The notes under the pieces were generated by a model. The model did no database searches. It was given only the letters and a program-made list of their open reading frames with translations, and had not been told where the DNA came from. From positions 1-16,253 of the forward strand of contig JAFUPG010000066.1 in the NCBI GenBank assembly GCA_017481325.1: a DNA stretch of 16,253 nt, written 5' to 3'. Both the position numbers and the translations under genes were made by a program. This document shows positions 178 to 11,872 of this stretch, one piece after another; position 1 is the stretch's first letter, and each line of letters begins with the position of its first letter. Origin of the DNA: Oscillospiraceae bacterium. Its GTDB lineage: Bacteria; Bacillota_A; Clostridia; Oscillospirales; Oscillospiraceae.

Positions 178-521
178 CTACTCTTAAAAATTACCAATAA
201 TTCTGAAAAAAGTAAACCGATTTTGGGTAAAAGAAACAACCGCCGCCCTTTCTGACAACATTTTGCCCAAAAATTCACAATCTCCGAAAGGAGTTGAAAA
301 AAATAAAGTCATTTTCACCAAAAATCGTCGCTCATTTCTGTAGAATACTACCAGAGAAAAAAGAAAAATTTGGAAAAATCGACATTCGTAACTTGTTTAA
401 CTTGTTTGTTTTATATCAATTTAAAGCGACTTTTGCATATTTTCTCTTACATTTTTTTCTTAAATTTTCACAATACCTCTTTCCACTTGGCAACCTCTGT
501 TACAAGATGGCAGTTCCATGC
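178..521. other. AT-rich non-coding stretch, no gene recognised
   Basis: About 340 bases, clearly more AT-rich than the flanking genes. Reading frames here are short, biased to Lys/Phe/Asn by base composition, and lack a properly spaced ribosome site (the best, AAGGAG at about 288, abuts a TTG start with no gap). The region lies between the 5' end of the left-edge gene and the 3' end of the lyase gene, so it must hold the left-edge gene's promoter, but I could not place one convincingly. It also contains a short direct repeat (AACTTGTTT twice, near 391-408). Confidence 0.5.
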
Positions 522-552
522 ACAAAAAACGGCACCCAAAACGGGTGCCGTT
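522..552 (-). terminator. Intrinsic terminator of the beta-lyase gene
   Basis: A perfect 10-bp stem (528-537 with 543-552) and a 5-nt loop; on the minus strand it is followed by a run of six U. It lies about 110 bases past the lyase stop codon and is the only strong terminator in this gap. Confidence 0.85.
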
Positions 553-598
553 CAGAGCATATGGTTTGATATGGGCGCTTTCAGATTTTCTCTGTCCA

Positions 599-649
599 AA
601 TTGCGCTGCCGCAAAATGCGCTTCGGCGCAATTCATGCCCTTCCGGGCA
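599..649. repeat. Cluster of small GC-rich inverted repeats in the lyase 3' UTR
   Basis: AATTGCGC (599-606) can pair with GCGCAATT (626-633). Alternatively TGCGC (617-621) and GCGCA (626-630) form a tight hairpin with a TTCG tetraloop. A further stem, TGCCC/GGGCA (636-640 with 645-649), closes a TTCC loop. The compact set resembles REP-like dispersed elements, but no second copy occurs in this window, so that is only a suggestion. It could equally protect the lyase mRNA 3' end. Confidence 0.35.
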
Positions 650-662
650 AATCATCACCTGC

Positions 663-2111
663 TTACTGATCCTCGCCGAAGTCCTTGACGTACTCGGCAA
701 CCAGCTTCTCGGGCCAGTCGGAGGTGGGCTCCAGCTTGCCGGTGAAGAAGCGGAGGGTGGAGGGCTCATGGGTGAAGCGGAGGCCGCCGATGAGGTGGGC
801 ATGGTCGTGGAGCCACTTCACACGGTCGATGACGTACTCGGTCTGGGACAGGGTGAACACTCTTCTGGGGAAGGCCAGACGGATCATCTCCACCGCAGCG
901 ATATGCTCGGTGCCGTCGGGGTTGCGTTCCTCGGAGAGGGTGCCACGCTCCATGCCACGGATGCCGCCGCAGAGGTACATGGCTACGGTGATAGCTCCGG
1001 CGGGGTACTCCTCATCGGGAATATGGGGCGCCAGCGCACGGGCATTGATATGCGCGCCCAGGCCGCCGCTGGGAGTCACCATGGGAACGCCGCACTTGAC
1101 CAGCTCGTTGACGCAGTGACGGATGAACTGGGGGCCCTGGGAGATGACATCGAAATCCATAGTCTCTTCGAAGCCCACGATCAGCGCCTCCATCTCCTTG
1201 ACGGACATGCCGCCGTAGGTCAGGAAGCCCTCGTACATGGTGACATAGTCCTCCATCTCATGGAACATCTTCTCGTCACGCACCATGCAGCCACCGCCCC
1301 TGCCGAAGCCGAACTTACGGCCGGAGAAGTAGACCAGATCATACAGATCGGCGATCATACGGGTGATCTCACGGATGGACTTGTCCTTCATGCCCTCTTC
1401 ACGGGTCTTGATGAAGTAGAGGTTGTCCTGGAGCAAAGAGGCATCCAGAACGGTGGGAATGCCATAGGACTTGGCGATATCGGTGGCGGCCTTCATATTG
1501 GCATAGGACACGGGCTGACCGCCGATGAGGTTGGTGCCGGCCTCCATGCGGAGGTAAGCGATATTTTCAGCGCCCTCTTTTTCGATGCAGGCACGGAGCT
1601 TATCCAGATCCATGTCGCCCTTGAAGGGCAGGTCGCTGGCGGTAATGAGGCCGGCATCGGAAACCAGCTCCTCTACCTTGCCGCCCAGGCTGGTGACATG
1701 GGCCTTGGCGGTGGTGAAGTGGTAGTTCATGATGACGGTCTTGCCGGGCTTGACAAAGTGGACGGCAATGATATGCTCACAGGCACGGCCCTGGTGGGCA
1801 GGCAGGAAATGCTTGATGCCGAAGATCTCCGTCAGCTTGTCGTTCATGCGGTAGAAGGTCTCGCTGCCGGCATAGGCATCGTCGGCACGGAGCATGGCGG
1901 CCTGCATATCGTCGCTCATGGCATTGACACCGGAGTCGGTGAGCATATCCACAAAGATATCCTTGTTATGCAGGGCAAAGGTATTAAAATTGGCCTCTTT
2001 CATCTTTTCCAGGCGCTGTTTTGCGGGCAAAAGCTCCAGACGCTGGACGATTTTGACCTTATGCATCTCCATGGGGACGGCGGGACGGTGGTAGAATTTG
2101 ATCTCGGGCAT
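663..2111 (-). CDS. Tryptophanase / tyrosine phenol-lyase family PLP enzyme (divergent)
   Basis: This 482-residue protein belongs to the beta-eliminating lyases, which use pyridoxal phosphate to split amino acids such as tryptophan or tyrosine into an aromatic product, pyruvate and ammonia. Family landmarks include LTDSG (57-61), AYAGSE (79-84), Y87, HQGR (106-109), GGQPVS (197-202), PLP-pairing D223 and the SGRK motif with the Schiff-base lysine K266. The MERG motif (387-390) matches tyrosine phenol-lyase, whose Arg binds the phenol, rather than tryptophanase. However, against both enzymes I remember, the Arg three residues after the PLP Asp is L226, the Lys before the Schiff-base Lys is R265, and the GGH motif reads GGL (349-351). 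Substrate is therefore uncertain. The ATG follows GGAGG by 8 nt. It is transcribed divergently from a LysR gene, its probable regulator. Confidence 0.85.
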   Translation of the reverse strand: MPEIKFYHRPAVPMEMHKVKIVQRLELLPAKQRLEKMKEANFNTFALHNKDIFVDMLTDSGVNAMSDDMQAAMLRADDAYAGSETFYRMNDKLTEIFGIKHFLPAHQGRACEHIIAVHFVKPGKTVIMNYHFTTAKAHVTSLGGKVEELVSDAGLITASDLPFKGDMDLDKLRACIEKEGAENIAYLRMEAGTNLIGGQPVSYANMKAATDIAKSYGIPTVLDASLLQDNLYFIKTREEGMKDKSIREITRMIADLYDLVYFSGRKFGFGRGGGCMVRDEKMFHEMEDYVTMYEGFLTYGGMSVKEMEALIVGFEETMDFDVISQGPQFIRHCVNELVKCGVPMVTPSGGLGAHINARALAPHIPDEEYPAGAITVAMYLCGGIRGMERGTLSEERNPDGTEHIAAVEMIRLAFPRRVFTLSQTEYVIDRVKWLHDHAHLIGGLRFTHEPSTLRFFTGKLEPTSDWPEKLVAEYVKDFGEDQ

Positions 2112-2147
2112 AAAAGTTTCCTCCGGGCTTGTTTTTTTCTTTGGCTT

Positions 2148-2176
2148 AGTATATAATAATGCCGCAGATTAGTAAA
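2148..2176 (-). promoter_or_regulatory. Sigma-A-type promoter of the beta-lyase gene
   Basis: On the minus strand, TTTACT (2171-2176), a 17-bp spacer and TATACT (2148-2153). The -10 differs from consensus at one base. The leader would be about 30 nt. Confidence 0.65.
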
Positions 2177-2198
2177 ACAAATAGTTTAGATTGGTTTA

Positions 2199-2213
2199 AT
2201 CGAAATTTTCGAT
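2199..2213. promoter_or_regulatory. LysR-type operator (T-N11-A palindrome)
   Basis: A 15-bp inverted repeat, ATCGAAATTTTCGAT, carries the T-N11-A pattern (T2200, A2212) typical of LysR-family binding sites. It sits directly before the ribosome site of the LysR gene and upstream of the divergent lyase promoter, which suits autorepression plus control of the neighbour. The pattern is seen; the role is inferred from family behaviour. Confidence 0.6.
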
Positions 2214-2222
2214 GGAGGGATT

Positions 2223-3128
2223 ATGGAGCTTCGAAATCTACACAGCTTTCAGCAGGTAGCGGAGAAAAACAGCTTTACCGCCGCAGCGGAGGCCCTGGGC
2301 TATAGCCAATCCACCATCTCCTTCCAGATCCGACAGCTGGAGGATGAGCTGGGCTGCCGTCTTTTCGAGCGGATCAACCACAATATCTCCCTGACCCAGG
2401 AGGGGCTGGAGCTGCTGGACTATGCCCAGCGGATGCTGCGGCTCACAGGCGAGGTGAAGGAAAAGCTCCACCCCACGGGAGAGATCGAGGGCTTTGTCCA
2501 CATTGTCACCCCGGACTCCATCTGCGAGGCCATGATGATGACCAACTATGCGGATTTTTACAGCCACTATCCCAAGATCCGCCTGAAATTCTCCACAGCA
2601 GACACGGGGGATATGTTCCGCATGCTGGATCGCAACGAGGCGGACATCATCCACACTCTGGATAGCCACGTGTACAGCCCCGAGTATATTATTGCCAGAG
2701 AGGAACGGGCGAAGGTGCATTTTGTCACCGCCACAGACTCCCCACTTGCCAAAAGACGGGGGCTATCCATTGAGGAGCTGCTGGACGAACCCTTTATTTT
2801 GACGGAAAAGGGTATGAGCTACCGACGGGTTCTGGATGAGGCGTTGGAAAAGCGCTCCCTGCGCCTGACGCCCATTTTGGAGATCGGGCGGACGGATATC
2901 ATTGTGTCCACCCTGGAGAAGGGTGTCGGCATTTCCTTTCTGCCGGAGCTGGCCACCCGTCAGGCGGTGCAGGAGGGACGGCTGTGTTATCTGGACGTGA
3001 CGGACCCGGAGATCGACATCTGGAAGCAGCTGATCTATCACCGCAGCAAATGGATCTCCCGAAGCCTGCGTGCCTTCATCGATTACGTTAAAAAAGCGGA
3101 ATTCTCACAGGAGGTGTCCCATGGATAA
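2223..3128 (+). CDS. LysR-family transcriptional regulator
   Basis: A 301-residue protein of typical LysR length. Residues 1-60 form the winged helix-turn-helix: MELRNLHSFQQVAEKNSF, then AAEALGYSQSTISFQIRQLE, and a wing ending in LFER. Residues about 90-290 are the periplasmic-binding-like effector domain. The ATG at 2223 follows GGAGGGA closely. The gene faces away from the PLP lyase gene, the classic arrangement in which a LysR protein senses the substrate or product of the divergent enzyme and represses itself. Its stop codon overlaps the next gene by 8 bases, so the ybaK-like gene is probably co-transcribed and translationally coupled. The effector cannot be read from sequence. Confidence 0.92.
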   Translation: MELRNLHSFQQVAEKNSFTAAAEALGYSQSTISFQIRQLEDELGCRLFERINHNISLTQEGLELLDYAQRMLRLTGEVKEKLHPTGEIEGFVHIVTPDSICEAMMMTNYADFYSHYPKIRLKFSTADTGDMFRMLDRNEADIIHTLDSHVYSPEYIIAREERAKVHFVTATDSPLAKRRGLSIEELLDEPFILTEKGMSYRRVLDEALEKRSLRLTPILEIGRTDIIVSTLEKGVGISFLPELATRQAVQEGRLCYLDVTDPEIDIWKQLIYHRSKWISRSLRAFIDYVKKAEFSQEVSHG

Positions 3129-3585
3129 GACCAATGCCATTCGTCAGTTTGACCGGAAAAAGCTGCCCTATACCGTTCACAGCTATGAGGGTGTCATCAG
3201 CGGCGCAGAGGTGGCCGCCTATTTGCAGCAGGACCCGGATCGGGTGTACAAAACCCTGGTCACCACAGGAAAAAGCGGCGGACATTATGTGTTCATGATC
3301 CCCGTCTGCGGTGAGCTGGATCTGAAAAAGGCCGCTGCCGCCGTGGGGGAAAAGAGCATCGCCATGCTGCCCCAGAAGGAGCTGCTGCCCCTGACCGGCT
3401 ATATCCACGGCGGCTGCAGCCCCGTGGGCATGAAGAAGCCCTTCCCGACAGCCATCCACGCCACCGCAGCGGAGCAGGAGCAGATTTTTTTCAGCGCCGG
3501 GCGCATCGGTCTGCAGATCTGCGCCGCCCCCTCGGATCTGGAAAAGCTGGTGCGGCTGCAATATGCCGATCTCCTTTGCCGTTGA
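3121..3585 (+). CDS. ybaK: YbaK/EbsC-type Cys-tRNA(Pro) deacylase
   Basis: A 154-residue member of the YbaK/ProX editing family, which hydrolyses Cys-tRNA(Pro) misacylated by prolyl-tRNA synthetase in the cytoplasm. The expected signatures are present: DKTNAIR at the N-terminus, RVYKTLV (41-47) with K44 in the place of the functionally essential lysine of the family, and GGCSPVGMKK around residue 100. The ATG at 3121 is preceded by AGGAGGT; a longer frame starting at 3070 has no ribosome site and would run deep into the LysR gene. It overlaps the LysR gene by 8 bases. Its TGA stop lies inside the -35 box of the next promoter, so the next unit starts immediately. Confidence 0.9.
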   Translation: MDKTNAIRQFDRKKLPYTVHSYEGVISGAEVAAYLQQDPDRVYKTLVTTGKSGGHYVFMIPVCGELDLKKAAAAVGEKSIAMLPQKELLPLTGYIHGGCSPVGMKKPFPTAIHATAAEQEQIFFSAGRIGLQICAAPSDLEKLVRLQYADLLCR

Positions 3586-3610
3586 CAATCCCGAGGGAAA
3601 TCGCTATAAT
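3582..3610 (+). promoter_or_regulatory. Perfect-consensus sigma-A promoter of the His-rich/CooT unit
   Basis: TTGACA (3582-3587), exactly 17 bp, TATAAT (3605-3610). This is the best match to consensus in the window and overlaps the ybaK stop codon. It predicts strong, possibly constitutive expression unless a repressor acts; no obvious operator is seen between it and the ribosome site. Confidence 0.88.
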
Positions 3611-3642
3611 AGATACACTTATATTATAAAGGAGTCATTTAT

Positions 3643-4047
3643 ATGATGTTCAATACCTTCTATCACCACGAGCACAGCCACTCCCATGAGCACAGCCATG
3701 GGGACGTGACCCATACCCACGAGCACAGCCACAGCCACCATCACGAGGGCGAGGAGCACAGCCACTCCCATGAGCATCTCCACGACCACGACCACAGCCA
3801 TGACCACGACCACGGCTGCACTCACAGCTGCAGCAGCTGCGCCGGCTGCGACCCCATGCAGGAGACGCTGGCCCTGATGCAGTACATGGTCAACCACAAT
3901 GCCGCCCACGCCCGTGAGCTGGCCGAGCTGGCAGGCAAACTGGAGCAGCTGGGCAACGAAGCCGCCGCCCGTCAGGTGCTCACCGCTGTCAGTGAGTTCG
4001 AAAAGGGCAACCTGCGCCTGGCCACGGTGCTGGCATCCCTGAAGTAA
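3643..4047 (+). CDS. Histidine/cysteine-rich putative metal-binding protein
   Basis: A 134-residue protein with three parts. Residues 8-61 contain 25 histidines, mostly as HSH, HEH and HDH repeats mixed with Glu and Asp. Residues 59-69 hold a four-cysteine cluster of the form C-x3-C-x2-C-x2-C. Residues about 72-134 are a predicted helical domain rich in Ala, Leu and Glu with no membrane segment or signal peptide, so it is likely cytoplasmic. Such His tracts bind nickel, zinc or cobalt in HypB, SlyD and CooJ-type proteins. I do not recognise a named family for the helical part. The ATG at 3643 follows GGAG by 8 nt. It precedes a CooT-like gene by 13 bases under a consensus promoter, which points to nickel storage, delivery or buffering; that role is inferred. 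Confidence 0.85.
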   Translation: MMFNTFYHHEHSHSHEHSHGDVTHTHEHSHSHHHEGEEHSHSHEHLHDHDHSHDHDHGCTHSCSSCAGCDPMQETLALMQYMVNHNAAHARELAELAGKLEQLGNEAAARQVLTAVSEFEKGNLRLATVLASLK

Positions 4048-4386: not shown

Positions 4387-5304
4387 TTAGTTCTCGCAGT
4401 ATGCCTTGGCGATCTTGGAAGCCAGACGGACATTGTTGAACACCAGCTGGATGTTGGACTCCAGGCTGCTGCCGCCGGTGATCTCCTTGATCTTGGCCAG
4501 CAGGAAGGGGGTGGTCTCCTTGCCGGAGATGCCCAGGGTCTTGGCCTCTTCCACGGCATCGGCAATGGCCTTGTTGATGACGTTCTCGTCCATGGAGTAC
4601 TCCTCGGGGATGGGGTTGGCAACCAGCATGCCGCCCTTCAGGCCCATGTCAGCCTGGGTCTTGAAGGCTACCGCCAGCTCTTCGGGGGTATCCATACGGT
4701 AGTCTACGCTGAAGCCGGACTTTCGGGTGAAGAAGGCGGGCAGCTCCTTGGTGCCATAGCCCAGGACGGGAACGCCGTGGGTTTCCAGATATTCCAGGGT
4801 CAGACCCAGGTCCAGGATGGACTTGGCGCCTGCGCAGATGACCATAACGGGGGTCTGAGCCAGCTCTTCCAGGTCAGCGGAGATATCCATGGTGACCTCA
4901 GCGCCACGATGCACGCCGCCGATGCCGCCGGTGGCGAAGATCTTGATGCCGGCCATGTGGGCGATGATCATGGTGGTGGCGACGGTAGTAGCGCCGTCTT
5001 CCTTACGGGCGCAGAGCACAGCCAAGTCACGACGGGAGGCCTTGGCAATCTGGGCACCCTTCTTGCCAAAGTACTCGATCTCTTCGTTGGTCATGCCGGC
5101 CTTCAGGCGGCCGCCGATGATGCCGATGGTGGCAGGAACAGCGCCGTTTTCACGGATGATGTTCTGCACAGTGAGAGCGGTCTCGACGTTCTGGGGATAG
5201 GGCATACCGTGGGAAATGATGGTGGATTCCAGAGCCACGACGGGCTTACCGTTGGCAAGAGCCTCTGCTACTTCGGGGTTGATGTCCAGATACTTGTTCA
5301 GCAT
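4387..5304 (-). CDS. psuG: Pseudouridine-5'-phosphate glycosidase
   Basis: A 305-residue enzyme of the PsuG family, which cleaves the C-C glycosidic bond of pseudouridine 5'-phosphate to uracil and ribose 5-phosphate. The hallmark VVALESTIISHGMPYP lies at 22-37, with E26 matching the metal or substrate Glu of the E. coli enzyme. Other signatures are GIIGGRLKAG (61-70), K88, FATGGIGGVHRGAE (123-136) and CAGAKSILDLG (157-167), where K161 is the Schiff-base lysine. Length is normal for the family. The ATG is preceded by GGAGG. It lies 33 bases downstream of the PfkB kinase gene, forming the usual kinase-glycosidase pair for salvage of RNA-derived pseudouridine. No dedicated transporter is seen here. 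Confidence 0.96.
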   Translation of the reverse strand: MLNKYLDINPEVAEALANGKPVVALESTIISHGMPYPQNVETALTVQNIIRENGAVPATIGIIGGRLKAGMTNEEIEYFGKKGAQIAKASRRDLAVLCARKEDGATTVATTMIIAHMAGIKIFATGGIGGVHRGAEVTMDISADLEELAQTPVMVICAGAKSILDLGLTLEYLETHGVPVLGYGTKELPAFFTRKSGFSVDYRMDTPEELAVAFKTQADMGLKGGMLVANPIPEEYSMDENVINKAIADAVEEAKTLGISGKETTPFLLAKIKEITGGSSLESNIQLVFNNVRLASKIAKAYCEN

Positions 5305-5337
5305 AGTTTGTTCCTCCAGATAATATGTTAATTTTAA

Positions 5338-6423
5338 TTATTGATTTTCTGCCATCCTCCGGCGCACCAGATCGGCGCAGAGGTCATGGTTAATGGTTTC
5401 GGCGCCCTCCACCGCAATGGCGGCGGTGGCAGCGGCGGCAAGAGCGGTGGTCTGCAGATCCGTGCCTTCTAAGTAGGCCCAGGCCAGCGCCGCCATGAAG
5501 GAGTCCCCTGCCCCGGTGGCATTGCGCATAACCGCCTTGCAGCAGGGCTGGATCAGGGTCTGCTTCCGGTCGGCGGCGAACACGCCCTCGGTGCCCATGG
5601 AGATGAAGACCCGATGCAGGCCGGTGGACAGCAGCACCTGGGCTGCCTTTTCCAGGCTCTCACGGTCGGTGATCTTCACCCCGGAGAGAAGTTCGGCCTC
5701 CATGCGGTTGGGCTTCAGGGTGTGGAGCTTGCCCAGCACAGAGCGGAGCTTCACCGCCTTGGCAGTGGAAACGGGGTCTGCAAAAATGGGAGCCGTGCAG
5801 TTCTCCGCCAGATAGCGGATGGATTCCTCGGGGATGTTGGTATCCACAACCACCAGCTGGGCATTGTTCAGCACGGGGAGCTTAGTGGCAAGATACTCAG
5901 GGGTGATCTTCTCGCAGATGTCCATGTCCGACAGGGCCAGCGCCATATCGCCGTCATGGTCATTGATGAAAAGGTAGGTGGGGGTGGCTCCGTCGGGAAC
6001 GGACAGGCAATCGCTGATGTCGATGCCCAATTCGCCGCAGGAGGCTGCTACCTTCTGTGCGTAGAGGTCATCGCCAAAGGCGGTGAGAAAGCGCACATTC
6101 AGACCCAGCAGGCTCATGTTATGGGCAATGTTTCTGCCCACACCGCCCAGGCTGATGCGCACCTTGCCGGGATTGGAATCCTGGGCAACCAGAGGCGCAT
6201 AGCTGCGGCCACCGATGTCAATGGTCACGCCGCCAACCACTACGGCATAGGTACCGGAGCGGAGGACATAGCCCTTACCGGCGATATAGCCCTTCTTCAT
6301 CAGGTTGGAAATATGTACCGCAACGGAGGAACGGGTGATCCCGGCCTTCTCCGCAAGGCGCTCCTGGGAGATCATAGGATCGGCCTCGATCCACTGCAAA
6401 ATCTGGCGTTCTCTCTGGGTCAT
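5338..6423 (-). CDS. psuK: PfkB-family (pseudouridine) kinase with N-terminal helix-turn-helix
   Basis: A 361-residue fusion. Residues 1-55 form a winged helix-turn-helix (SQERLAEKAGITRSSVAVHI, 19-38). Residues 57-361 are a PfkB ribokinase-like domain with GGVGRN (93-98) and the ATP/anion-hole signature NATGAGDSF (301-309), D307 being the catalytic base. The same architecture occurs in E. coli YeiI. Adjacent psuG makes pseudouridine the likely substrate, phosphorylated to pseudouridine 5'-phosphate. The start at 6423 is chosen because AGGAGG lies 8 nt upstream; an in-frame GTG three codons earlier overlaps that ribosome site. The HTH suggests the kinase regulates its own operon, but this is inferred. 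Confidence 0.88.
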   Translation of the reverse strand: MTQRERQILQWIEADPMISQERLAEKAGITRSSVAVHISNLMKKGYIAGKGYVLRSGTYAVVVGGVTIDIGGRSYAPLVAQDSNPGKVRISLGGVGRNIAHNMSLLGLNVRFLTAFGDDLYAQKVAASCGELGIDISDCLSVPDGATPTYLFINDHDGDMALALSDMDICEKITPEYLATKLPVLNNAQLVVVDTNIPEESIRYLAENCTAPIFADPVSTAKAVKLRSVLGKLHTLKPNRMEAELLSGVKITDRESLEKAAQVLLSTGLHRVFISMGTEGVFAADRKQTLIQPCCKAVMRNATGAGDSFMAALAWAYLEGTDLQTTALAAAATAAIAVEGAETINHDLCADLVRRRMAENQ

Positions 6424-6450
6424 ATTGCGCACCTCCTGTTCCCTGTGATC

Positions 6451-10168: not shown

Positions 10169-10197
10169 TTGACAGGGCTGCTTCCTTATGATATATT
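10169..10197 (+). promoter_or_regulatory. Promoter of the riboswitch-flotillin unit
   Basis: TTGACA (10169-10174), 17 bp, TATATT (10192-10197), with TG one base before the -10. A 15-bp near-palindrome, TGAAAATATTTTTCA (10147-10161), lies 7 bp upstream of the -35 and could be an operator. Confidence 0.8.
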
Positions 10198-10203
10198 TAA
10201 TCC

Positions 10204-10315
10204 ATCAAGAGGGAGTAGTTGCACTGCTTCGCTGCAGTGGTGCCTCCGCCAACAGTACGATCGTTCCGATCTGGCGGATGCAGATCTTCTGACAAAAGAT
10301 TCAACAAGACTTTTC
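10204..10315 (+). ncRNA. yybP-ykoY-type (manganese) riboswitch aptamer, putative
   Basis: The leader begins with AAGAGGGAGTAG (10207-10218) and ends with AACAAGACTTTT (10303-10314). These match the two most conserved strands of the yybP-ykoY aptamer (GGGGAGUAG and GCAAGACCUUU). They pair as P1 (10207-10211 with 10310-10314), and the next helix begins with TTG (10219-10221) pairing CAA (10302-10304), a compensatory change relative to the common C-G pair. Between them are a CACTGC/GCAGTG hairpin and a CCGCCA/TGGCGG arm capped by GATCG/CGATC. Family members bind Mn2+. P1 and the terminator stem share 10308-10314, so ligand binding should favour read-through. Assignment is by eye, not by covariance search. 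Confidence 0.62.
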
Positions 10316-10350
10316 ATTCGCTGCAGCGGGTGAAGAGTCTTTTTGCTTTT
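10306..10350 (+). terminator. Riboswitch expression-platform terminator
   Basis: A 16-bp stem with several G-U pairs (10306-10321 with 10326-10341), a TGCA loop, then TTTTTGCTTTTT. Its left strand contains the 3' strand of the aptamer's P1, making the two structures mutually exclusive. Confidence 0.82.
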
Positions 10351-10410
10351 TCTTGATGCGTACGCAAGTCGTTTATTCCCATGAAAATATTTAGAAAAGG
10401 AGAAATCATT

Positions 10411-11820
10411 ATGCCCAACATTTTCACAAATCCTGCGGTTTTGATCCCTGTGATCGCCGGTGTGCTGGTCATCATTCTGCTGGTGGCCGGCTACCTGAAA
10501 GCTCCCCCCGACACTGCCTACATCATCTCCGGTCTGGGCAAGCGCCGTATCCTCATCGGTAAGGCCGGCTGGCGTGTCCCCTTCTTTGAGCGTGTGGATA
10601 AGATCTCCCTGCGTGTGATGCAAGTGGACGTGAAAACCTCCGAAGCCGTGCCCACCAACGAGTTCATCAACGTCAGCGTGGACGGTGTGGCCAACGTGAA
10701 GGTCTCCTCCGATCCCGAGCTGCTGCTCCGTGCCTCTGAAGCCCTGTTGGGCATGAGCCGCCAGGAGCTGATCTCTCTGGTCACCCAGGTGCTGGAGGGT
10801 AATATGCGTGAGATCGTGGGCTCCGTTGGTCTGAAGGAAATGGTGCAGGATCGCCAGGGCGTTGCCAAGAAGATCACCGAGAATGTGGTGCCCGATATGC
10901 AGAAGCTGGGCATCGAAGTGGTCAACTTCAACATCCAGAGCTTCCGTGACAATGCCGGTACCATTGAGAACATGGGTATTGACAACGTGGAGCAGATCCG
11001 CAAGAATGCCCAGATCGCCAAGGCCAATGCCCAGCGTGACATCGCCATCGCCACCGCCGAGGCACAGCAGCAGGCCAATGCCATCCGTGTAGAGGCCGAC
11101 AAGAAGATCGCCGAGCAGAATGCTGACCTCCTGGTGCAGCAGGCCCAGATGAAGGTAGTAGCCGACACCAAGAAGGCTGATGCCGACGCCGCCTACTCCA
11201 TCCAGCAGGAGACCCAGCGTAAGACCATCGAAATCAGCCGTGCCAATGCGGACATTGCCCGCCGTGAAAAGGAAGCCGAGCTCATGGAGAAGGAAATTGC
11301 CCTCCAGGAGCGCAAGCTGGATGCGGAGATCCGCAAGCAGGCCGATGCCATGAAGTACAAGGCCGAGAAGGAAGCCGAGGCCGACCTGATCCGCCGTCAG
11401 AGAGACGCAGAGGCCAAGAAGTACGAGGCCATTCAGGAGGCAGAGGCCAAGAAGGCCGAAGCCGAGGCGCTGCGCTTTGCCATGGAGCAGGAGGCCGAAG
11501 GTATCCGTGCCCGTGGTCTGGCGGAGGCCGAGGCCATTGAGAAGAAGGCCGAAGCCCAGAAGAAGATGGGCGAAGCCTCCATTCTGGAAATGTACTTAAA
11601 TGCCCTGCCTGAGGTGGTCAAGGGCGCAGCCGCTCCCCTGGCACAGACCGACAAGATCGTTATGTACGGCGACGGCAACTCCACCCGTCTGATCAAGGAC
11701 ATCATGGGCAGCGCCAACCAGGTGGTGGACGGCCTGAAGGAGTCCACCGGCATCGATCTGCAGGCGCTGGTGGCAGGCTTCGCCGGCGGCAAGATCGCCC
11801 AGAAGAGCGAAGAGGAATAA
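10411..11820 (+). CDS. floT: Flotillin-like SPFH membrane-scaffold protein
   Basis: A 469-residue flotillin. One N-terminal membrane segment spans 9-29, an SPFH/band-7 domain about 30-200 (PPDTAYIISGLGKRRILIGK, then EFINVSVDGVANVKVSSDPE), a long Ala/Glu/Lys coiled coil about 195-385, and a C-terminal region ending EMYLNALPEVV and STGIDLQALVAGF. Length and layout match B. subtilis FloT (YuaG), which forms oligomers in membrane microdomains and influences fluidity and signalling. No NfeD-like partner gene is adjacent. The ATG at 10411 is selected because AGGAG sits 8 nt upstream; an in-frame ATG at 10381 lacks a site. Expression is probably controlled by the riboswitch and terminator upstream, which is unusual for this family as far as I know. 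Confidence 0.92.
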   Translation: MPNIFTNPAVLIPVIAGVLVIILLVAGYLKAPPDTAYIISGLGKRRILIGKAGWRVPFFERVDKISLRVMQVDVKTSEAVPTNEFINVSVDGVANVKVSSDPELLLRASEALLGMSRQELISLVTQVLEGNMREIVGSVGLKEMVQDRQGVAKKITENVVPDMQKLGIEVVNFNIQSFRDNAGTIENMGIDNVEQIRKNAQIAKANAQRDIAIATAEAQQQANAIRVEADKKIAEQNADLLVQQAQMKVVADTKKADADAAYSIQQETQRKTIEISRANADIARREKEAELMEKEIALQERKLDAEIRKQADAMKYKAEKEAEADLIRRQRDAEAKKYEAIQEAEAKKAEAEALRFAMEQEAEGIRARGLAEAEAIEKKAEAQKKMGEASILEMYLNALPEVVKGAAAPLAQTDKIVMYGDGNSTRLIKDIMGSANQVVDGLKESTGIDLQALVAGFAGGKIAQKSEEE

Positions 11821-11840: not shown

Positions 11841-11872
11841 GGAGCCGGTTCAGCAAATGCTGAACCGGCTCC
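11841..11872 (+). terminator. Hairpin terminator after the flotillin gene
   Basis: A 14-bp perfect stem (11841-11854 with 11859-11872) closing a 4-nt loop, 20 bases past the stop, followed by a loose T-rich tail. It may serve both converging units, since the def gene ends at 11947 on the other strand. Confidence 0.7.

Follow-up and report, generated by a model that had tools for sequence, protein, structure and literature searches.

The closest described relatives of the leader considered here are the yybP-ykoY or Mn2+ riboswitches (RF00080), represented by L. lactis yoaB and by a member from X. oryzae. In this class, Mn2+ is described as stabilising the helix P1.1, thus blocking the terminator (PMC6754395, PMC11087558). 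In the L. lactis RNA, P1.1 is formed by A3–G7 with C96–C102, the Mn2+ site comprises G9, U39, C40, A41, U44, and C45, and N7 of A41 serves as the discriminator, this residue being called invariable (PMC9190785). With these members the leader shares the four-way junction, loop L1 with GGGAGUAG, the CAAGA-CUUU 3′ strand, an L3 bulge bearing the equivalents of C40, A41, and C45, and a P1.1 helix that competes with an intrinsic terminator. It differs from them in its target, which is a flotillin gene, in the L3 sequence ACAGUAC, and in an RF00080 score lying under the gathering cut-off. The layout CGUCAUUACG...CCGG is common to E. coli alx and many flotillin leaders. The targets of E. coli mntP and alx are exporters, unlike flotillin, and the mntP switch is called translational (PMC11647493), whereas the sequence studied here points to termination. 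The NiCo riboswitch is also a four-way junction sensing transition metals, described as lacking the docking interface formed by L1 and L3 (PMC6754395); its Rfam model is not among the seven matches of the leader at E 10.

The leader belongs to a window (the whole stretch of DNA analysed) of 16,253 nucleotides from an Oscillospiraceae bacterium. On its forward strand, positions 10205–10341 represent a yybP-ykoY (Mn2+) aptamer joined to an intrinsic terminator, upstream of a flotillin gene starting with ATG at 10411. Transcription is probably driven by a sigma-70-type promoter, TTGACA-17-TATATT (10169–10197, + strand), which matches 11 of 12 consensus positions and carries TG ahead of the second hexamer; a promoter scan returned two sites of this kind in 2.4 kb against 1.2 expected. 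The transcript would start at about 10204, exactly at the P1.1 strand, and a leader of about 206 nt separates promoter and flotillin, with the ribosome-binding site AAAAGGAG at 10395–10402 (+). The regulated gene (10411–11820, +) encodes 469 aa with the Pfam domains Band_7 (89 bits) and Flot (27 bits, exactly at the cut-off), and its nearest database protein, P0001, is 98% identical and bears the NCBI name flotillin family protein.

A hairpin scan placed a terminator-like structure 3′ of the gene (11841–11872, +), in keeping with a single-gene transcript, and the next gene, encoding peptide deformylase, lies on the opposite strand; the leader therefore most likely serves flotillin alone. No conserved operon partner was found 3′ of flotillin across the loci compared, where the largest homologous groups had four members, and a co-directional ORF of at least 100 aa within 120 nt downstream occurred at 29 of the 74 flotillin loci with enough downstream DNA. 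Elsewhere in the window, a 134-aa ORF (3643–4047, +) has a histidine-rich N-terminal half and is possibly metal-binding, and at 4387–6432 (−) an indigoidine synthase A-like gene adjoins a pfkB kinase gene with an HTH domain. This gene pair resembles one for pseudouridine breakdown.

A first-pass annotation of this DNA had proposed yybP-ykoY signature strands near the two ends of the leader, a terminator re-using the P1 strand with ON-switch logic, and flotillin as the downstream gene. All three proposals are borne out: the strands are GGGAGTAG at 10211–10218 and CAAGACTTTT at 10305–10314, the product is a flotillin by its domains and nearest relative, as given above, and the shared terminator strand is a constant feature of such leaders (see below). 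That annotation covered the two P1/L1 strands; the more diagnostic L3 metal loop at 10252–10258 escaped it. The aptamer as a whole spans 10205–10314 (+). It opens with the 5′ strand AAGAG of the switch helix P1.1 (10207–10211, +; columns 3–7 of the covariance model R1, helix 1), followed by the 5′ strand of L1, GGAGUAG (10212–10218, +), which forms part of GGGAGTAG. The L1 strands GGGAGUAG and CAAGA are both present beside P1.1 (10211–10218 and 10305–10309). Three arms follow, with limits read from the sequence: the P2 hairpin CACTGC...GCAGTG (10222–10239, +; helix 3), the P3 arm TCCGCCA/TGGCGGA with P3.2 GATC/GATC (10245–10278, +; 10259–10262 with 10268–10271; helices 4–6), and the P4 hairpin GATCTT/AAGATT (10283–10301, +; helix 7). 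The L3 metal loop ACAGUAC (10252–10258, +) is a bulge read from alignment A3, with residue numbers of the metal site taken from PMC9190785. The aptamer closes with the L1 3′ strand CAAGA and the P1.1 3′ strand CUUUU (10305–10314, +), where positions 10305, 10307–10310, 10312, and 10313 are invariant across the 40 rows of alignment A1. The motif GGGAGTAG is present in all 40 of these rows, which were selected by that motif; three more leaders, found without motif selection, have GAGAGTAG (L013, L028) or GGGAGTAA (L026).

The expression platform is an intrinsic terminator (10306–10350, +) with a stem at 10306–10341 of 16 pairs and a loop of four, followed by the T-rich tail TTTGCTTTTT; its 5′ arm includes the P1.1 3′ strand. 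In all 48 flotillin leaders, the window included, the P1.1 3′ strand lies within the terminator 5′ arm with all five of its nucleotides, and a T-rich tail is present. Since the strand is common to P1.1 and the terminator, the class mechanism would turn flotillin on at high Mn2+, that is, act as an ON switch. In the proposed scheme, without Mn2+ the CUUUU segment at 10310–10314 would enter the terminator, and RNA polymerase would halt near 10345, within the T-rich tail. A rise in cytosolic Mn2+ would let the ion bridge L1 and L3 via N7 of A10254 and backbone phosphates, stabilising P1.1, so that the terminator could not form and flotillin would be made. The computations establish the fold, the class membership, the retention of the leader before flotillin genes, the strand common to P1.1 and terminator, and the discriminator A, and from them we infer Mn2+ as the ligand, the direction of regulation, and the physiological role. 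Taken together, the data make it very probable that the flotillin transcript is under a yybP-ykoY riboswitch that Mn2+ turns on at the level of transcription.

A search with the Rfam covariance model, proposed in the first-pass annotation as a check, was carried out with cmscan. At the gathering threshold of RF00080 (45 bits), nothing is returned in the window. Below that threshold, RF00080 is the best Rfam match of the leader (10198–10369, 24.0 bits, E 7e-5 in 351 bases), and no other Rfam class outscores it there. The gathering score is reached in none of the 18 flotillin loci scanned out of 80, and at E 0.05 RF00080 finds nothing in four flotillin/SPFH loci (L096, L097, L099, L135); in the genome of the nearest relative (G001), it fails to pick up the flotillin leader (L001) even when matches up to E 10 are admitted. 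At the genome level, RF00080 matches at E 10, some of them due to chance, occur in 9 of 14 control genomes, 2 of the 14 having a match above the cut-off, while among 16 genomes picked for holding flotillin loci none has a match above the cut-off and seven have one at E 10. However, the cut-off is a poor judge here and misses true members, because with the same Rfam copy the validated riboswitch of E. coli mntP, at 41.6 bits, is under it too. At E 0.05, E. coli alx goes unlisted, and a leader preceding a P-type ATPase gene of the nearest relative scores 23.3 bits. The better score of the window relative to its kin probably comes from its L3, which has CAACA as in the Rfam consensus. As real members are hidden by the cut-off (compare L093 and L094), Mn2+ regulons in Clostridia are probably under-annotated.

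Because RF00080 misses some flotillin leaders outright, class membership rests on an independent covariance model, R1, and not on the Rfam model. R1 was built from 12 aligned flotillin leaders with a hand-set structure, drawn from a source set of 80 flotillin loci, with the window excluded. The hand-set structure replaced the result of RNAalifold on a MAFFT alignment of 40 leaders, which gave seven pairs only, six of them with compensatory changes; the low number is explained by MAFFT misaligning P2 and P4. R1 scores the window at 54.5 bits (10205–10320; E 4.8e-12 in 658 kb, R1 E-values being rough). With filters off, it also recovers the validated E. coli riboswitches mntP (36.1 bits, E 4e-8) and alx (29.4 bits, E 3e-6), and among leaders of related MAGs it scores those before Na_Ca_ex/CaCA, P-type ATPase, and MntP genes, as assigned by Pfam, at 45.4, 35.9, and 24.5 bits; the next-best match across the same eight sources, again with filters off, has 11.7 bits. 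Under default filters alx is returned, and the leaders of mntP, L081, and L083 are lost. The recovery of validated riboswitches by a model made from flotillin leaders indicates that these leaders and the proven Mn2+ riboswitches constitute one family. As far as sequence can tell, the flotillin leader is thus a member of the known yybP-ykoY class and not a new class, in agreement with the assignment that the first-pass annotation had made.

The same result bears on the view that the leader resembles yybP-ykoY in shape only and needs no ligand, acting instead by RNA polymerase pausing, by a protein, or as a constitutive attenuator. A terminator with a 5′ competitor is common in many attenuators, and the leader does fold strongly by itself: the minimum for 10205–10355 is −65.2 kcal/mol versus −42.3 ± 3.9 kcal/mol for shuffled sequences (z −5.9), a value reached by none of 200 shuffles. 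Nevertheless, the L1 and L3 metal loops are conserved beyond what the helices need, and validated Mn2+ riboswitches are picked up by a model built from flotillin leaders, so that a ligand-free leader is very unlikely.

Conservation before flotillin genes was assessed in 80 loci, 74 of which have at least 250 nt before the start, the other six being too short. An exact-motif scan detected the leader at 44 of the 74, and R1 raised this number to 47, so the expectation of the first-pass annotation that the leader would be conserved at flotillin orthologues holds for the majority; as the 80 loci are the best relatives of the window protein, 47/74 is not an unbiased frequency. The remaining 27 loci give no R1 match at E 0.1, and Mn2+ control is therefore not universal for flotillin. 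A quickly built flotillin tree of 81 rows, in which 26 of the 77 inner branches are open, requires at least eight changes to explain where the leader is present or absent, and leaders are found on both sides of the midpoint root. The window-type flotillin itself is patchy: of 39 genomes of the order, two have it at E 1e-60, and in each of them the leader accompanies it.

Covariation was evaluated on 52 matches in 50 distinct rows, an alignment fitted to the R1 structure, which favours pairing, and including two exporter leaders (L026 479–613, L054 7641–7730) as well as two short minus-strand matches. Over seven helices, 89% of cells pair, and 28 of 30 pairs have changes on both sides; all 500 shuffles fall short on each of the five measures, and when the partners are shifted by one column the paired cells drop from 89% to 44–47%. 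For the switch helix P1.1, 94% of cells are paired and four of five pairs changed on both sides, for P2 these values are 77% and five of five, for helices 4–6 of the P3 arm 90–100% of cells are paired, and for P4 80%. Such covariation, together with the 47 leaders among 74 loci and the E-value of the window, makes a chance coincidence of a terminator and a motif match, with no regulatory RNA behind it, extremely improbable, even if the RF00080 score under the cut-off speaks in its favour. Judged by R1, a yybP-ykoY leader is kept before flotillin in many gut Clostridia.

The ion sensed by the leader may be approached through its metal site. A10254 is presumably the equivalent of L. lactis A41, being matched via the L. 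lactis sequence, with agreeing spacing. On this alignment, the window keeps the Mn2+-discriminating adenine, A10254 in ACAGUAC. The L3 bulge of the 48 flotillin leaders reads UCA in 35, ACA in 7, and CCA in 1, which amounts to an A in 43 of 48, and ACU in 5. The five leaders with U at the A41 position (L011, L016, L018, L022, and L024) represent four distinct sequences, and their genes fall into one well-supported clade of seven flotillins that also includes L036 with A. A sixth candidate, L149, was rejected as a duplicate: its sequence equals that of the L016 leader, and it sits in the same genome only 12 nt away from a contig end, so close that its gene is out of view. In the genus of the ACU leaders, where 10 of 14 genomes gave matches, A is retained in the leaders before P-type ATPase, MntP, and OAD_beta genes, so that paralogous switches within one genus differ at the A41 residue.

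The literature is divided on the effect of such a replacement. In the X. oryzae RNA, A48U is reported to eliminate the response to Mn2+ (PMC6754395), and in reported simulations U41 contacts Mn2+ via its O4 more rigidly (PMC9190785). Decay of the ACU leaders is unlikely, because their R1 scores (41.6–46.7 bits) and terminators (−22.7 to −25.4 kcal/mol) are intact; an altered ion or threshold is possible for them. A strict U41 pattern ending in ACTAAACGG was sought in 295 genomes of the order and matched none of them, in a sample that has outside it the holders of the exact form (G118, G120, G121) and inside it G008, which has an extra G (GCGG) relative to the pattern; with this makeup, the result tells that the U41 variant is rare and no more.

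These leaders, a regulated gene that is not a transporter, and the expectation voiced in a review that yybP variants of altered ion specificity will be found (PMC7266159) all suit the idea that the flotillin branch has the yybP-ykoY fold and senses another divalent ion, Mg2+, Fe2+, or some other, instead of Mn2+. This idea has to be set against the A kept in the window and in 42 of the 47 other flotillin leaders, and against the likeness of the window ACAGUAC to ACAGCAC before the P-type ATPase gene in L082; it appears unlikely, and Mn2+ is the preferred ligand. A broader proposal, which at present we would rather doubt than accept, is that Mn2+ or a neighbouring ion governs SPFH scaffolds via riboswitches in gut Clostridia and that one genus evolved A41U only at flotillin while A41 was kept at the Mn2+ exporters and the Na+-pump gene, giving a re-tuned aptamer with altered ion specificity or threshold. 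In any case, a natural A-to-U change at the metal discriminator offers a ready-made test of how ion specificity is set in this aptamer class.

The companions of flotillin under the same switch were sought by R1 scans of three overlapping sets: the nearest relative's family (61 genomes), another family (40), and one genus (14). Counts from the first set are to be read as lower bounds, since its filters were stricter and only part of its candidates received a score. Sixty-nine loci from these and earlier scans yielded 71 matches in 66 loci, with L097 and L099 (flotillin) and L137 (overlapping L127) left out. Targets were classed by the first downstream ORF and BLAST to reference proteins, and Pfam was run on one to four examples per type except flotillin and alx. 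The matches precede genes for P-type ATPases (23), OAD_beta (16), flotillin (7, six of them already among the 80 loci), CaCA antiporters (7), MntP (7), and CitMHS/ArsB-like permeases (3), with one each for SPFH (L096), a Na/Pi cotransporter, GDT1, TGT, and E. coli alx, and three unclassified. L026 has two separate Mn2+-type switches next to each other (within 479–4000): a P-type ATPase gene (902-aa ORF) with its own switch stands directly upstream of the flotillin switch. At L054 the switch of a CaCA gene, encoded on the other strand, is located about 2.3 kb past the flotillin gene. In L096 (1501–2662), a switch scoring 76.3 bits by R1 precedes a second SPFH gene (Band_7 117 bits), distinct from the window flotillin; its protein gives no BLAST match to the window flotillin at 1e-4. 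The L096 switch hints that SPFH proteins may take part more widely in this response.

The OAD_beta leaders, placed before the gene for the beta subunit of Na+-pumping oxaloacetate decarboxylase, are L100, L104, L116, L122, L124, L125, L129, L140, L142, L150, L151, and L157–L161, two of them assigned with Pfam; in L129 the L3 bulge is TCG. Mn2+ control of a sodium pump is unexpected, and OAD genes are mentioned as occasional known targets of Na+ riboswitches (PMC9337991). The R1 matches before CitMHS/ArsB-like permeases, the Na/Pi cotransporter, and TGT (L109, L114, L126, L105, L133) are likewise odd companions for a Mn2+ switch.

Why a flotillin should respond to Mn2+ may be considered in the light of data from other bacteria. 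In B. subtilis, FloT and FloA are both listed among the proteins co-purifying with the TerC protein MeeF, and FloA also among those co-purifying with MeeY (PMC10550928, Table 1); according to the same paper, these TerC proteins export Mn2+ and metalate exported enzymes, and cells lacking them depend on FtsH. Shewanella cells deprived of the SPFH-domain protein SO1377 (COG2268) are reported to have less free iron and to be more sensitive to peroxide (PMC1468410). From these co-purifications and the SO1377 phenotype, a flotillin induced by Mn2+ could help exporters or the quality control of the membrane. Within the proposed scheme, flotillin would be made alongside Mn2+ exporters that have the same switch in related genomes and would support the membrane machinery for excess Mn2+, namely exporters, TerC proteins, and secretion or quality-control complexes. 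What counts against Mn2+ control of flotillin is that the flotillin genes of B. subtilis are described as sigma-W-dependent (PMC5052260), which means that another control of flotillin is known elsewhere.

In the literature searched, which has most subscription journals outside it, a flotillin or SPFH gene under a riboswitch was not found, and passages of PMC10550928, PMC8989276, PMC9723704, PMC10119275, and PMC5052260 show no flotillin gene under such control. What appears to be new here is the regulated gene, flotillin along with one other SPFH gene, and the set of five U41 flotillin leaders in one genus. We know of no earlier membrane-domain scaffold in a riboswitch-controlled metal regulon. 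The leader would place such a scaffold in a regulon of this kind and suggests that bacteria switch on a membrane-organising protein as manganese rises. This would be a testable link between Mn2+ stress and membrane organisation, one that fits the co-purification of FloT and FloA with TerC proteins.
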